This document shows, one piece after another, positions 1-5,444 of a stretch of DNA of 5,603 nt. The DNA lies in contig RFFQ01000123.1 in assembly GCA_003697105.1 (NCBI GenBank), forward strand, positions 1 through 5,603, written 5' to 3'. A program made the translations under genes and the position numbers. Origin of the DNA: Gemmatimonadota bacterium. Lineage in GTDB: Bacteria > 4572-55 > J002. Below the pieces are notes generated by a model. It saw only the letters and a program-made list of their open reading frames with translations. It made no database searches and was not told the origin of the DNA. The number at the start of each line of letters is the position of its first letter. Position 1 is the stretch's first letter.

Positions 1-1121
1 GACAAGCAAGCTAGCACAAACAGCAAGTTGTTGAATAAAAAGGCACTTTCCCGCGAGACCACCGAGTCAAGTTCATGTTCACTGCGTAAGTAGGGCAACC
101 GGATGATGATCAGATAGGTCAAAGCAATGACCGCAATACCGATAAACGTGAGAAAATACCAGCCAATGGAGGATGCCGCGAACGAATGTACCGATGAAAC
201 CACACCACTTCGGGTCAGGAATGTACCCAGAATAGAGAGTAGATAGGTGGCAACAATTAAAACAATGTTCCAAACTTTGAGCATTCCTTTCCGTTCTTGT
301 ATCATTACGGAATGCAGGAACGCCGTTCCGGTCAGCCACGGCATCAAGGAGGCATTTTCCACCGGATCCCATGCCCAATAACCGCCCCAACCCAACTCCA
401 CATACGCCCACTTGCCGCCGAGCATGATCCCGCAGGAGAGGAAAAACCATGAGGTGAGGGTCCAGCGGCGGGTGGCTTTGATCCAATCAATCCCTAATTG
501 GCGGGTCATTAAGGCGGCAAACGCAAACGCAAACGGAACGACAAAACCGATCAACCCAAAGTAGAGTACCGGCGGGTGAATCACCATTGCCGGATGTTGC
601 AACAACGGATTTAATCCCCGCCCATCCATTGGCATAAAGGAGGCATACGTCCCATCAGGCAGGTGTTGCATCCATTCCCCAAACGGATTGGCAACAAAAA
701 TATTGAGTACCAAAAAGAAATGAGTTGTACCCAACAGCACCATAATAATCCAGGGTTGCATCACTTGAAATTTTTTCCGGGTCAGAATAACTGCCGCACT
801 GGCGTAGGTCAAGAGTACCCAGCTCCAAAACAACAGCGAGCCATCATGCCCTGCCCATAAACCGGTGATCTTGTAAAAAAGGGGCAAATCAATATTGCTC
901 ACGCTGTACACATATTGGACGTTAAATTGGTTGTTTATAATCAAGGCGATTAGTACCGCGCAAGCAATGGAAACAAGCGCATAAGTTGCTAGCACCGACC
1001 GGCGGGCACTCTCGATTAACCCCGGGCGATACTTCCATCCCCCTAAAATTGAGGTGACCAGTCCGTAGGAGCAAACAATAAATGCCATTAGTAATGTCAG
1101 ATTTCCAAAATTGACCATCAT
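1..1121 (-). CDS. ccmF: Cytochrome c maturation protein CcmF (haem lyase subunit), 3' part cut by window edge
   Basis: CcmF is the multi-span inner-membrane core of the System I haem lyase, which takes haem from holo-CcmE and attaches it to CxxCH motifs of apocytochromes c. The first 373 codons are visible, out of a usual length of roughly 600-700. The tryptophan-rich WWD haem-handling segment lies at about residues 238-262 (WAYVELGWGGYWAWDPVEN, then MPWL). Histidines expected in the family are present: H182 in IHPPVLY, H270 in TAFLHS and H312 in SSVHSF, matching the periplasmic and transmembrane haem-ligand positions of E. coli CcmF. Hydrophobic spans occur near residues 7-27, 42-62, 94-114, 122-142, 180-205, 285-302 and 320-341. 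The start is ATG at 1121, one base after the ccmE stop; a second in-frame ATG follows at once. A GGAGG lies inside the ccmE end, 12 nt upstream. Translation is probably coupled to ccmE. Confidence 0.95.
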   Translation of the reverse strand, partial: MMVNFGNLTLLMAFIVCSYGLVTSILGGWKYRPGLIESARRSVLATYALVSIACAVLIALIINNQFNVQYVYSVSNIDLPLFYKITGLWAGHDGSLLFWSWVLLTYASAAVILTRKKFQVMQPWIIMVLLGTTHFFLVLNIFVANPFGEWMQHLPDGTYASFMPMDGRGLNPLLQHPAMVIHPPVLYFGLIGFVVPFAFAFAALMTRQLGIDWIKATRRWTLTSWFFLSCGIMLGGKWAYVELGWGGYWAWDPVENASLMPWLTGTAFLHSVMIQERKGMLKVWNIVLIVATYLLSILGTFLTRSGVVSSVHSFAASSIGWYFLTFIGIAVIALTYLIIIRLPYLRSEHELDSVVSRESAFLFNNLLFVLACL

Positions 1122-1122
1122 G

Positions 1123-1530
1123 TTATGCGCCGCCCTCCATACCTTCGCCTTCATATTTGGAGGCGCATTTGGCTTGAATGTGATCGGCTTCAAACGTACC
1201 ATTGGTCAACAGTTTGCCTTCCACCACCGCTTGAGAACCGTCCTTAAACGTATCCGGGATCGGAGCCGTACCAATATACCGTACGGGCATCGTAGCGCCA
1301 TTTAATTCAATCGTAAATGTGATCGGGCGGGTGTCCGTCTGGATCGACCCTTCCACGACATCCCCCCGAACTTTGAGACGCTTGTTGAACGCATCATTAC
1401 CCATCGCATAAACTTCATCGACATGAAGATAATATGCTTTGCTTTCTTGAAAGCCGGTTGCGGCTAATGCTACGAGTGTAACCGTGATGATAAGGCTACC
1501 AATCAAAAATTTGGTTTTGGCTTTCTTCAT
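1123..1530 (-). CDS. ccmE: Cytochrome c maturation haem chaperone CcmE, Cys-type (CxxxY) variant
   Basis: CcmE is a membrane-anchored periplasmic haem chaperone. It accepts haem from CcmC/CcmAB and passes it to CcmF. The 135-residue product has a short basic N-terminus, one transmembrane segment (about residues 8-26), then the family's YYLHVDEV opening. A beta-barrel (OB-fold) domain follows, with GDVVEGS, RYIGTAPIPDTFKDG and VVEGKL. Near the C-terminus, where E. coli has the covalent haem-binding HxxxY (His130), this protein has C122-A-S-K-Y126, a CxxxY motif. That is the known Cys variant described for sulfate reducers and archaea, so the chaperone is probably functional, not damaged. The C-terminal tail after it is short and acidic/glycine-rich. 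ATG at 1530 is preceded by AGGAGG (plus-strand 1536-1541) with 5-nt spacing, so the start is firm. It is the first gene of the leftward operon with ccmF. Confidence 0.95.
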   Translation of the reverse strand: MKKAKTKFLIGSLIITVTLVALAATGFQESKAYYLHVDEVYAMGNDAFNKRLKVRGDVVEGSIQTDTRPITFTIELNGATMPVRYIGTAPIPDTFKDGSQAVVEGKLLTNGTFEADHIQAKCASKYEGEGMEGGA

Positions 1531-1586: not shown

Positions 1587-1606
1587 TATTCTATCAAGGT
1601 AGAATA
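1587..1606. promoter_or_regulatory. Inverted repeat over the ccmE -10 element (candidate operator)
   Basis: The arms TATTCTA and TAGAATA are perfect 7-bp inverted repeats around a 6-bp centre (TCAAGG). The minus-strand arm TATTCTA contains the proposed ccmE -10 hexamer, so a protein bound here would block RNA polymerase. The binding protein is unknown; the adjacent TetR-family protein is one candidate. The arms differ in sequence from the repeat at 1708-1735, which argues against one protein binding both. The arms are AT-rich, so a chance palindrome cannot be excluded. Confidence 0.45.
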
Positions 1607-1629
1607 ATGTGGAAAAGTAGTTCTGTCAA
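1601..1629 (-). promoter_or_regulatory. Sigma70-type promoter of ccmE-ccmF
   Basis: Read on the minus strand, a consensus -35 TTGACA (plus-strand 1624-1629) is followed after exactly 17 bp by TATTCT (plus-strand 1601-1606), which matches four of six -10 positions. Transcription would start near 1594, giving a leader of about 60 nt before the ccmE ATG. Spacing and -35 quality are good. It is inferred from sequence only. Confidence 0.6.
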
Positions 1630-1753: not shown

Positions 1754-2398
1754 ATGAATGAACACACTCGGATACACATTATTAATACGGCGCGCCGCCA
1801 TTTTTTCAATGCCAGTTACCGTAAAGTGACAATCGATGAAATTGCTCACAGTTTGGGCATGAGCAAAAAAACACTTTATACCTATTTCTCCAGCAAAGAA
1901 GAACTCCTGCGAGAAACAATGCGATATACCCGCCAAGAAATCGCCCAAGACCTGGAATCGATTTTAGCCCAAGACCATTTGCCGTTTATGAAACGCTTCC
2001 AGAAAATCCTATTTGTCATTTTGAACTTGACACAGTCTGTACGGAAGGAATTTTTGGTTGATTTACAACGCACTCACCCCGACATTTGGCAGGAGATGGA
2101 AGCCTTTCGTAAAAACCAAATCTACACCAAATTAGGGGGATTGATCCGTGAGGGGATAGCGGCTGGGAATCTCCGCAATGACATTGATCCCCAGTTTATC
2201 ATCTTGATGTTCTATACCTTAGCCCAAAACATCATTTGCCCGGAAACACTGTCCCAGATACCGTTTTCAGCTTCGGATGCGTTTCGCTCCATTGTAAAAA
2301 CCATCTTTGAAGGTATTTTGACCGAAGAGGTGCGCCATGAATACCCGTTTATTCTACCGGAATCTGCCGGTTGGGAGGAAGACCCATCACATGCGTAA
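1754..2398 (+). CDS. TetR/AcrR-family transcriptional regulator (CecR-like position)
   Basis: The 214-residue product has the typical TetR layout. The N-terminal helix-turn-helix domain covers about residues 5-50. Its recognition part reads TIDEIAHSLGMSKKTLYTYF (26-45), followed by SSKEELL, which is the signature of the family. The all-helical C-terminal ligand-binding/dimerisation domain (about 60-205) is divergent and gives no clue to the ligand. Such proteins normally repress an adjacent efflux operon until a small molecule binds. Here the gene heads an operon with a HlyD-like adaptor and two ABC ATPases, as CecR (YbiH) does with ybhG-ybhF in E. coli. The ATG at 1754 lacks a clear Shine-Dalgarno sequence, but no better start exists, because the helix-turn-helix domain begins right after it. 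The stop overlaps the next gene by 8 bp. The class is certain; the effector and target sites are inferred. Confidence 0.92.
   Translation: MNEHTRIHIINTARRHFFNASYRKVTIDEIAHSLGMSKKTLYTYFSSKEELLRETMRYTRQEIAQDLESILAQDHLPFMKRFQKILFVILNLTQSVRKEFLVDLQRTHPDIWQEMEAFRKNQIYTKLGGLIREGIAAGNLRNDIDPQFIILMFYTLAQNIICPETLSQIPFSASDAFRSIVKTIFEGILTEEVRHEYPFILPESAGWEEDPSHA
2374..2378 (+). promoter_or_regulatory. Ribosome binding site that sets the adaptor start
   Basis: GGAGG inside the 3' end of the tetR gene lies 12 nt before ATG 2391. It favours that start over the upstream in-frame ATG at 2337, which would put a charged 18-residue extension in front of a lipoprotein signal peptide. Confidence 0.6.
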
Positions 2399-3347
2399 CA
2401 GCATACTAATTCTTGCTATTTGGATTGGGGGGTGTTCGTCCCCGGACTCCACCCAAACTATTGAAGCCTCAGGAACAATTGAAACTACGGAAGTCCGGGT
2501 CTCTACCCAAATTTCAGGACAGATTGACCGGCTCTTGGTTGATGAAGGTGATACCGTAGGCGTGGGGGATACTCTGGCAATTATCGATCAGACCCAGCTA
2601 AAATTACAACAACAACAACTCCAAGCGGATATTGATCTGGCGGAAGCGCAGTTACGGATGCTCTTAAACGGTGCGCGTGTAGAAGATATTCAACAGGCGC
2701 AGGAGCAACTGAAGCAAGCGGAAGCCCATCTTAAATTAATGCAGGAGAATCTGCGCCGGATCACGGAACTGTTCGAGTCCGGTAGTGTGTCCCAACAACA
2801 AAAAGATGATGCGGAAACCCGATTTCAGGTTGCCCAAGCCCAACGGGATGCCGCCCAGCAAACCGTTAAAAAATTACAGCGATTTGCTCGCCCAGAAGAA
2901 ATAGAAGCGGCACAAGCCCAACTTGCCAAAGCAAAAGCCGGCAAAGCACTGATTGACCATCGTATCTCAGAGGCGTTTATTACGGCGCCGCTTGCCGGGG
3001 TGGTGACCCATCGTCCGGTAGAAATGGGTGAAGTGGCGACACCAGGGCTTCCCCTATTCACCATTTCGGAACTCGACCCGGTGGAGGTTGTGGTGTTTGT
3101 TACCGGGAAAGAAGTGGGGCGGGTCCGGTTGGGCCAGCAGGCTGTAGTGCATATTGATAGCTATCCGCACCGGGCGTTTGAGGGGCAAGTGACCTTTATC
3201 GCCTCCCAAGCGGAGTTTACACCAAAGACTATCCAAACTGCAGCAGAGCGGGTGAAACTGGTGTATGAAGTCCGGCTGCGGGTCGCTAATCCAGAAGGCA
3301 TTTTGAAGCCCGGAATGCCGGCGGATGTAGTTCTTCACGCCTTATAA
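2391..3347 (+). CDS. HlyD/AcrA-family periplasmic adaptor lipoprotein (YbhG-like)
   Basis: This is the membrane fusion/adaptor subunit that links an inner-membrane ABC exporter to a TolC-type outer-membrane channel. From ATG 2391 the product has 318 residues. It starts with a short lipoprotein signal peptide ending in IGGC, so Cys15 would be lipidated; Ser16 follows it. First lipoyl half-domain: about 33-66 (SGQIDRLLVDEGDTVGVGDTL). A long Gln/Ala/Glu-rich alpha-helical hairpin spans about 67-187. Its tip carries R123, L127 and S134, the R-x3-L-x6-S spacing used by AcrA and MacA to dock on TolC. Second lipoyl half: about 197-230 (ITAPLAGVVTHRPVEMGE). The beta-barrel domain follows to the end. 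It overlaps tetR by 8 bp, so translation is probably coupled. The gene ends with tandem TAA stops. Substrate unknown. Confidence 0.92.
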   Translation: MRNSILILAIWIGGCSSPDSTQTIEASGTIETTEVRVSTQISGQIDRLLVDEGDTVGVGDTLAIIDQTQLKLQQQQLQADIDLAEAQLRMLLNGARVEDIQQAQEQLKQAEAHLKLMQENLRRITELFESGSVSQQQKDDAETRFQVAQAQRDAAQQTVKKLQRFARPEEIEAAQAQLAKAKAGKALIDHRISEAFITAPLAGVVTHRPVEMGEVATPGLPLFTISELDPVEVVVFVTGKEVGRVRLGQQAVVHIDSYPHRAFEGQVTFIASQAEFTPKTIQTAAERVKLVYEVRLRVANPEGILKPGMPADVVLHAL

Positions 3348-3586
3348 TAAAATTTACATAATTTTACTATGTCGTCAATGCCCGCACATGGCGTGCTTGA
3401 GTAAGCTAACTGTAATAATAAATAAGGGGCAAACCGAAAATGGTATTCGGCTGAAGACTTCTGCGGAGATTTCAGTAATCTAAGGATTTTACGACCAACA
3501 CGTTATCGCCGGAATTACTTGTAAACTACGGACGCTCCAATCCGCAATTTTGCCCACCTCGTGCCGTACCCCTTTGGTCTTTTGAA
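3348..3586. other. Non-coding gap between adaptor and first ATPase gene, with no convincing gene
   Basis: This 239-bp stretch interrupts an otherwise overlapping operon. The first ATPase frame is open back to about 3479 but offers no ATG, GTG or TTG there. No Shine-Dalgarno sequence precedes ATG 3587. An AT-only 7-bp stem at 3348-3366 is too weak for a terminator. TGTAATAAT at 3411-3419 resembles an extended -10, without a good -35. Open stretches of up to about 30 codons on either strand match no family I recognise. The gap could be a structured leader, an internal promoter region or the remnant of an insertion. Confidence 0.6.
3434..3475 (+). other. Two abutting hairpins, candidate structured RNA leader
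   Basis: Hairpin 1 (3434-3450) pairs CCGAA with TTCGG around a 7-nt loop. Hairpin 2 begins at the very next base (3451-3475). It pairs CTGAA with TTCAG, continues through a G-T wobble, one A-A mismatch and CTTC/GGAG, and closes on a TGC loop. Zero spacing would allow coaxial stacking in RNA. The sequence matches no riboswitch or ribozyme class I could recall. A role in the expression of the ATPase gene downstream is inference. Confidence 0.3.
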
Positions 3587-4543
3587 ATGAATACATTTGC
3601 CATTCAAACCCAGAATCTAACGAAGCATTTTGGCGATATTCCTGCCGTTAACGGGATTGATCTGCACGTTAAACCGGGTGAAATGTTCGGGATTGTCGGT
3701 CCGGATGGTGCCGGAAAGACGACAACCCTCCGGATGCTGTGCGGGGTGATCCCGCCAACATCCGGATCCGCACATGTTTTGGGGCTGGATGTTGTGCATG
3801 ATAAACAAAAGCTAAAACATAACATCGGCTATTTATCCCAGCGGTTTAGTCTGTATGGAGACCTCACAATTGATGAAAACATCGAATTTTTTGCCGAAAT
3901 CCACCAAGTGAAAGACTACAAAAAGCGCCGGCAAGAACTGCTGGATCTTACACGGTTAACCCCATTCCGCAAGCGTTTTGCCGACCGGCTTTCTGGCGGG
4001 ATGAAGCAAAAATTAGCGTTAGCGTGTACCTTAATCCACATCCCGCAGGTCATTTTTTTGGATGAACCGACAACGGGCGTTGATCCAGTGTCTCGCCGTG
4101 ATTTTTGGAAGATTTTGGCGAGTTTACTCAAAACTGGTATCACCATTGTGATGTCCACACCCTATCTGGATGAAGCGGAACGCTGCAACCGTGTTGCCAT
4201 GATGAGTCATGGTGCCATCTTGATCACCCAGACACCGTCGATGATTAAAAAAGAGATGAAAGGCGATTTGATTGAGATTATGTGTGATGATGTGCGCCGG
4301 GCATTCAACCTGTTGAAGATGAATGATGCTGTTATCGAAACACAGGCGTTTGGTGACCGGGTGCATGTGGTGGTTATGGATGCCAGCCGGGATGTCCCGC
4401 CGGTTCTGGCTCAACTGGAAAGCGCCCAGGTGCGTATCATTCAGGTTCGCCCCATTTCGCCATCGTTGGAAAATGTTTTTATCTCTTTGCTCCAAGCCAC
4501 CGCGCACCAAAAGGAACAGGCGAATGATGACCCGTGCAATTGA
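3587..4543 (+). CDS. ABC transporter ATPase, YbhF N-half type, with degenerate H-loop
   Basis: This cytoplasmic nucleotide-binding subunit belongs to an ABC-2 type exporter. The 318-residue product has Walker A GPDGAGKT (38-45), Q-loop Q85 (YLSQRFSLY), signature LSGGMKQ (135-141), Walker B VIFLDE with catalytic E160, and D-loop GVDP (164-167). The switch histidine of the H-loop is missing: the STPYLDEAE segment has Pro192 where STHYLDEAE would be canonical. From memory, the first domain of E. coli YbhF shares the same GPDGAGKT and also lacks this His, so this is the split N-half equivalent. A C-terminal domain (about 225-302) ends in PSLENVFI, as in the DrrA/YbhF group. The start has no Shine-Dalgarno sequence, yet the next Met (M33) would delete the first strands, so ATG 3587 stands. 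It overlaps the next ATPase gene by 20 bp, and the two products probably form a heterodimer. Confidence 0.93.
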   Translation: MNTFAIQTQNLTKHFGDIPAVNGIDLHVKPGEMFGIVGPDGAGKTTTLRMLCGVIPPTSGSAHVLGLDVVHDKQKLKHNIGYLSQRFSLYGDLTIDENIEFFAEIHQVKDYKKRRQELLDLTRLTPFRKRFADRLSGGMKQKLALACTLIHIPQVIFLDEPTTGVDPVSRRDFWKILASLLKTGITIVMSTPYLDEAERCNRVAMMSHGAILITQTPSMIKKEMKGDLIEIMCDDVRRAFNLLKMNDAVIETQAFGDRVHVVVMDASRDVPPVLAQLESAQVRIIQVRPISPSLENVFISLLQATAHQKEQANDDPCN

Positions 4544-5444
4544 AGTCCGTAATTTAACCAAAAAATTTGGATCGTTCACCTCCGTGGATCAGATCAGTTT
4601 TGACGTCCGTACCGGTGAAATTTTTGGCTTTTTGGGCTCGAATGGGGCAGGGAAATCCACTACGATTCGTATGTTATGCGGTTTGCTCCAGCCGACTGCC
4701 GGTGCCGCTGTTGTTGCCGGGGTGGATGTGGTAAAATATCCCGAACGGGTGAAATCCAAAATCGGTTATATGTCGCAGCGATTTTCACTTTACGAAGACC
4801 TCACCGTGCGGGAGAATATCCAGTTTTGGGGAGGGGTGTACGGCTTATCCCGGCAGGAAATAAAAGCGAGGTTGGCGCCGGTACTGGAATTCGCCAATCT
4901 TGCCGGGCAGGAAGACCGCCTCACCCGCGATCTTTCCGGTGGGTGGAAACAGCGGCTTGCCCTCGGCTGTGCGATTCTGCACCAGCCCCAAATTGTCTTT
5001 TTGGATGAACCCACGGGCGGCGTGGACCCCCTCTCCCGCCGCCATTTTTGGGAACGGATTAACCAGCTCTCAGATGCCGGTACAACGGTCTTTGTAACCA
5101 CGCATTTTTTGGATGAAGCCGAATATTGTCACAACATCCAACTGATTCATGCCGGTAAAATTATCGCCGGAGGTAGCCCCCAAACCCTGAAAACGGAGTT
5201 CATCCAGAACACGATGTTAGAGGTAGAATGCGAGCCGCTGATTGATGCCCTACAACTGTTGGAATCTCAAACGTGGATTCTAGAGACCTCCCTTTTTGGT
5301 ACGTACCTGCATCTGACCGTAGAAGATGCGGATCTCGCTACCACCAAAATAAAAAAACTACTTTCGGAAAATGCCATTAAACTACATCGCATGGAACCCA
5401 TTTTACCCTCGCTAGAGGATGTTTTTATTCATGTAGTCAGTTAG
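4524..5444 (+). CDS. ABC transporter ATPase, YbhF C-half type, with canonical motifs
   Basis: This is the second ATPase of the exporter, 306 residues from ATG 4524. AAGGA at 4511-4515 gives 8-nt spacing. A second ATG follows directly, and the long open frame upstream of it is only a shadow of the previous gene. Motifs: Walker A GSNGAGKS (38-45; the usual Pro after the first Gly is Ser), Q-loop Q85 (YMSQRFSLY), signature LSGGWKQ (137-143), Walker B IVFLDE with E162, D-loop GVDP (167-170), and H-loop H194 in TTHFLDEAE. The set is complete, so this subunit should hydrolyse ATP. The C-terminal domain (about 226-303) ends in PSLEDVFI and parallels that of the preceding ATPase, pointing to an old duplication. 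It corresponds to the second half of YbhF. The gene starts inside the preceding one in the +1 frame, which suggests translational coupling. No permease gene follows within the window. Confidence 0.94.
   Translation: MMTRAIEVRNLTKKFGSFTSVDQISFDVRTGEIFGFLGSNGAGKSTTIRMLCGLLQPTAGAAVVAGVDVVKYPERVKSKIGYMSQRFSLYEDLTVRENIQFWGGVYGLSRQEIKARLAPVLEFANLAGQEDRLTRDLSGGWKQRLALGCAILHQPQIVFLDEPTGGVDPLSRRHFWERINQLSDAGTTVFVTTHFLDEAEYCHNIQLIHAGKIIAGGSPQTLKTEFIQNTMLEVECEPLIDALQLLESQTWILETSLFGTYLHLTVEDADLATTKIKKLLSENAIKLHRMEPILPSLEDVFIHVVS

Follow-up and report, generated by a model that had tools for sequence, protein, structure and literature searches.

Research on System I cytochrome c maturation has mainly dealt with the His-type CcmE of the Proteobacteria, although a Cys-type is already known. 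The Cys-type system of Desulfovibrio, System I*, is said to have been treated by Allen in 2006 and by Goddard in 2010. Cys-type CcmE constitutes System I* and has been described in archaea and Desulfovibrio (PMC3601427), and the function of the Cys in CxxxY CcmE is established for D. desulfuricans and M. acetivorans (PMC3601427, PMC9084895). According to a 2011 review, Desulfovibrio CcmE binds haem covalently, and CcmH occurs in about one third of the bacteria with Cys-type CcmE, so that its absence is no hallmark of the type (PMC3601427). In M. acetivorans, both the attachment of haem and the stability of the protein depend on residue C120 (PMC9084895), and for D. vulgaris CcmE a non-covalent binding of ferric haem was reported (PMC3884852). 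Here we report a ccmE gene and an incomplete ccmF gene (Table 1) in a window of 5603 bp, which is a whole contig (C197) of a genome assembly of 4.18 Mb (199 contigs, 97% complete), together with the other ccm genes of that genome. Judged by its sequence, this CcmE is of the published System I* type.

The ccmE product has a membrane anchor at its N-terminus, followed by the CcmE domain, and belongs to the CcmE family with a PF03100 score of 84.6 bits (cut-off 24.6). It contains a single Cys (C122) and two His residues (H36 and H117). In a profile alignment with four close CcmE proteins as query and the E. coli CcmE entries 1SR3 and 8CE8 as targets, C122 lies opposite the His of AKHDENY (H130) and Y126 on the Tyr of the E. 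coli protein. A 16-row alignment that included His-type proteins again placed C122 on the haem-binding His position, and the Tyr was invariant in all rows. The site therefore has the Cys and the Tyr four residues on that mark CxxxY proteins and reads CASKY, not the HxxxY of classical System I; the first-pass annotation, which had described residues 122-126 in this way and assigned the protein to the CxxxY type, was right in the first point and is supported by the alignment in the second. It had also allowed for a His at the homologous position elsewhere in the protein and for a second, classical ccmE in the genome. The alignment puts C122 at that position, and a PF03100 search of the 97% complete assembly returned one match, this ccmE, and no second, His-type gene. 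H117 was considered as the true haem ligand and rejected; it lies five residues before C122, and its alignment column is not conserved.

Table 1. Positions of the ccm genes, motifs and associated features (window coordinates unless a contig is named).
Feature	Position	Strand	Basis or remark
ccmF, N-terminal part only	1..1121	minus	PF01578, TIGR00353/TIGR03145 and 6ZMQ matches
SGVVSSVHSFA, conserved second periplasmic His of CcmF	177..209	minus	sequence, aligned with 6ZMQ
WGGYWAWD, WWD haem-handling motif of CcmF	366..389	minus	sequence; identical in T. thermophilus CcmF
MVIHPPVLYFG, conserved first periplasmic His of CcmF	555..587	minus	sequence, aligned with 6ZMQ
ccmE, 135 aa, CxxxY-type haem chaperone	1123..1530	minus	PF03100 match
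CASKY, putative haem-binding motif, residues 122-126	1153..1167	minus	C122 codon TGC at 1165-1167
Candidate sigma-70-like promoter sites for ccmEF (weak)	1588..1629	minus	2 found, 0.7 expected by shuffling
Orphan CcmH-family gene, vicinal Cys APCCW	C160:36365-36829 (L044 8363-8830)	minus	PF03918
Zr and Cpr pair	contig C20, L152 3478-4047 and 4008-5417		between ccmF/H and ccmA in most CASKY ccm operons

The closest CcmE relatives carry CASKY without exception, dozens of other genomes have it as well, and this recurrence rules out a sequencing accident as its source. There is next to no chance that the Cys is a sign of decay in a CcmE no longer able to bind haem; we found no evidence in support of such a loss, and against it stand the strict conservation of CASKY in close relatives, the intact reading frame, the ccmF gene directly after it and the presence of cytochrome substrates.

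The ccmE stop codon and the likely ATG of ccmF (1119-1121) are separated by 1 bp. Because the window is a complete contig, ccmF is cut at its C-terminal end, which lies beyond the contig edge, and this truncation keeps the TIGR00353 and TIGR03145 scores below their full-length cut-offs. The product matches T. thermophilus CcmF (6ZMQ) with an E value of 5e-58. No match to the C-terminal domain of CcmF (PF16327) was obtained anywhere in the assembly, most simply because the contig ends there. Both conserved periplasmic His residues of the CcmF family are present in the visible part. The first-pass annotation had taken the WGGYWAWD of this CcmF for a change matched to the Cys of CcmE; the idea was rejected because WGGYWAWD occurs alongside His-type CcmE in two other genomes (G020 and G029) and in 6ZMQ. 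WGGWWFWD was seen only in the two Proteobacterial controls. As far as these sequences go, the WWD letters of CcmF track lineage, independently of the CcmE residue, and they suggest that WGGYWAWD is the non-Proteobacterial norm.

Positions 1754-5444 of the window encode a divergent TetR regulator, an HlyD-type membrane-fusion protein and two DrrA/RbbA-like ABC ATPases, and look like an efflux operon with its permease beyond the contig. The two ATPases were considered as CcmA and rejected, being DrrA/RbbA-like and under the ccmA cut-off, while the gene over the cut-off is on contig C20. The shortness of the contig (5.6 kb) and the truncation of ccmF would fit a binning error, by which a contig with a CxxxY CcmE foreign to this genome had been included. 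We consider this very improbable, since in G + C content (47.8%) and tetranucleotide profile the contig agrees with others of its genome (correlation 0.87-0.92) but not with related genomes (0.58-0.73), and since such an error would leave a genome that has ccmABCD and many c-type cytochromes without a ccmE.

The ccm genes of the genome are distributed over four contigs, with ccmA on C20, ccmB-ccmC-ccmD on C83, ccmE-ccmF on C197 and a CcmH-family gene (PF03918) on C160. The ccmA product scored 132.7 bits against a cut-off of 131.6, ccmB passed PF03379, and ccmC passed PF01578 but stayed below the TIGR01191 cut-off (157 against 186 bits). A 46-aa reading frame after ccmC matched the alternative CcmD family (TIGR04391, CcmD_alt_fam; 42.8 against 24 bits), so that the genome does not share the lack of ccmD that marks the archaeal CcmABCEF system. 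No CcmG/DsbE above the equivalog cut-off was found in the assembly (best TIGR00385 match 46.6 bits against 123); besides this match, the genome encodes other thioredoxin-fold proteins. The assembly gave no PF05140 (ResB) match and therefore contains no complete System II, which comprises ResB plus CcsA. One CcsA/HemX-like protein below the CcsB equivalog cut-off is encoded on contig C67 (L046 5952-6776) of this ResB-less genome. Putative substrates are present as CxxCH proteins with one to eight motifs. The reduced ccm set suspected by the first-pass annotation, which had proposed a genome search for ccmABCD, ccmG and ccmH, is supported only in so far as no CcmG lies above the cut-off; ccmA, B, C, D, E and F (F incomplete) are present, as is the PF03918 gene, an orphan with a CC site. 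The genes are dispersed, and no reduction of the set is obvious.

Very probably, these genes, scattered as they are over the genome, make up an ordinary System I* of the CxxxY type for cytochrome c maturation. By analogy with the described systems, CcmABCD would export haem and attach it by a covalent bond to C122 of CcmE, where Y126 would serve as the axial haem ligand. CcmF would take the haem from holo-CcmE by means of its WWD motif and the periplasmic His pair, the role of which is treated in PMC10746174, and would attach it to the CxxCH apocytochromes; the orphan CcmH-family protein or thioredoxin-fold proteins may reduce the apocytochrome. Covalent attachment in this CcmE is not certain, because non-covalent binding of haem was reported for the D. 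vulgaris protein, whose motif is of the same type (PMC3884852). It also counts against this explanation that ccmF is incomplete in the assembly, which thus does not show a working synthase in its full length.

The first-pass annotation had implied that Cys-type CcmE is rare. Among 60 genomes spread over the domain, the source genome included, 20 encode a CcmE above the cut-off, and the residue is Cys in 18 of these and His in two (G020 and G029), which does not support the implied rarity. A genome scan yielded a further view in the form of 80 named loci, which show spread only and are unusable for frequency because the search pattern contained CASK; CASKY-type loci were found in Acidobacteriota, Latescibacterota, Krumholzibacteriota, Eisenbacteria, Gemmatimonadota, Marinimicrobia, Calditrichota, KSB1 and others. 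In the CcmE tree, all five rows of the His type fall into a single supported group, and the CcmE reported here groups with those of Calditrichota, Marinimicrobia and similar lineages. These results suggest that Cys is the common form of CcmE across many uncultured bacterial phyla outside the Proteobacteria.

The usual gene order in CASKY-type loci, which is widespread, is E-F-(H)-Zr-Cpr-A-B-C-D, where Zr is a CcmI-N-like zinc-ribbon protein and Cpr a membrane protein with Ig/transthyretin-like domains; in the source genome the operon is in three pieces (Zr-Cpr-A, B-C-D and E-F). A ccmH gene lies between ccmF and the downstream Zr or Cpr gene in 38 of the 57 CASKY loci that have both, and is missing there in the other 19, among which are all loci near this CcmE in the tree whose operon is readable. 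In Latescibacterota CP070631.1 (L090 8501-10534), ccmF appears as two adjacent reading frames, either like ccmF1/ccmF2 of Methanosarcina or through a frameshift.

The CcmH-family protein on C160 passes PF03918 well (91.4 bits, cut-off 25) and keeps the CcmH layout, but reads APCCW at the site where classical CcmH has LRCxxC. As the gene stands alone and has CC in place of CxxC, its product is a candidate CcmH only; the region 3' of ccmF lies beyond the contig end. The neighbouring genes are trxA and a gene for a thioredoxin-fold lipoprotein. The lipoprotein, which adjoins the orphan gene (L044 7642-8142), has a CESC motif and is related to protein disulfide oxidoreductase (TIGR02187), at a score below the cut-off. 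Ten CcmH-family proteins with a CC site were seen, the relatives of the C160 protein being those of G034, G197, G328, G112, G249, G377, G100, G179 and G330, and in the larger loci examined none adjoins ccmEF. Among the genomes with a CC-type CcmH, a Ccm system was found in the source genome and G034 only. Our literature search found no paper linking CcmH with vicinal cysteines.

The isolation of the APCCW gene and the position of its relatives away from ccmEF are compatible with a slimmed-down system that, rather like the archaeal ones, does without both CcmH and CcmG, and with another role for the APCCW protein. In the CASKY operons closest to this CcmE in the tree (Marinimicrobia, KSB1/SM23_31 type and Latescibacterota), no ccmH gene separates ccmF from the gene that follows, and G001, the only relative of the same class in the comparison, has no PF03918 match. 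This reading has a real chance of being correct, though somewhat short of even, given the clear PF03918 score, the CcmH layout and the adjoining trxA, the presence of ccmD, which archaea lack, and the possibility that a ccmH gene follows ccmF past the contig end.

The Zr-Cpr pair is the best side lead of our analysis. Zr shows a weak CcmI match of 17.6 bits (21.9 bits in Cytobacillus), below the cut-off of 29.3, and no Pfam or NCBIfam model matched Cpr. The predicted structure of Cpr (mean pLDDT 81) has beta domains, a helical hairpin and a long, presumably membrane-spanning helix; searched against the PDB, the model matched nothing but Ig/transthyretin-like, pilin and peptidase domains, and TM-scores over the full chain were low. 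Neither protein was detected in the His-type loci compared, which are few and in part short; one of these has an annotated DsbE/CcmG gene and another a thioredoxin-like match. No paper linking CcmE or CcmF with Zr- or Cpr-type proteins was found in our literature search. We tentatively put forward, as a possible but rather unlikely arrangement, that CASKY-type System I* uses Zr and Cpr as an apocytochrome-handling module in place of CcmG and CcmI, and that the orphan APCCW CcmH supplies the thiol chemistry here. If they are part of the machine, Zr and Cpr could explain how such systems manage without CcmG.

The system reported here shares the CcmE family and the CcmABCDEF set with the classical System I of E. 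coli, from which it differs in having Cys instead of His, no CcmG above the cut-off, and WGGYWAWD instead of WGGWWFWD. With the archaeal CcmABCEF of Methanosarcina acetivorans (PMC9084895) it has the CxxxY CcmE in common, whereas ccmD is present and CcmF was not seen to be split. Compared with the CASKY-type operon of Acidobacteriota, Latescibacterota, Marinimicrobia, KSB1 and others, it is divided into E-F, Zr-Cpr-A and B-C-D and shows no in-operon CcmH up to the contig end, but has the same CcmE and CcmF motifs, with Zr and Cpr before ccmA and ccmD after ccmC. It agrees with the System I* of Desulfovibrio in the Cys in place of the haem-binding His, the conserved Tyr, the presence of ccmD and the lack of a CcmG at the curated cut-off, and is set apart from it by the distribution of its genes over at least three loci, by its CcmH-family protein, and by CASKY in place of the majority CPSKY.
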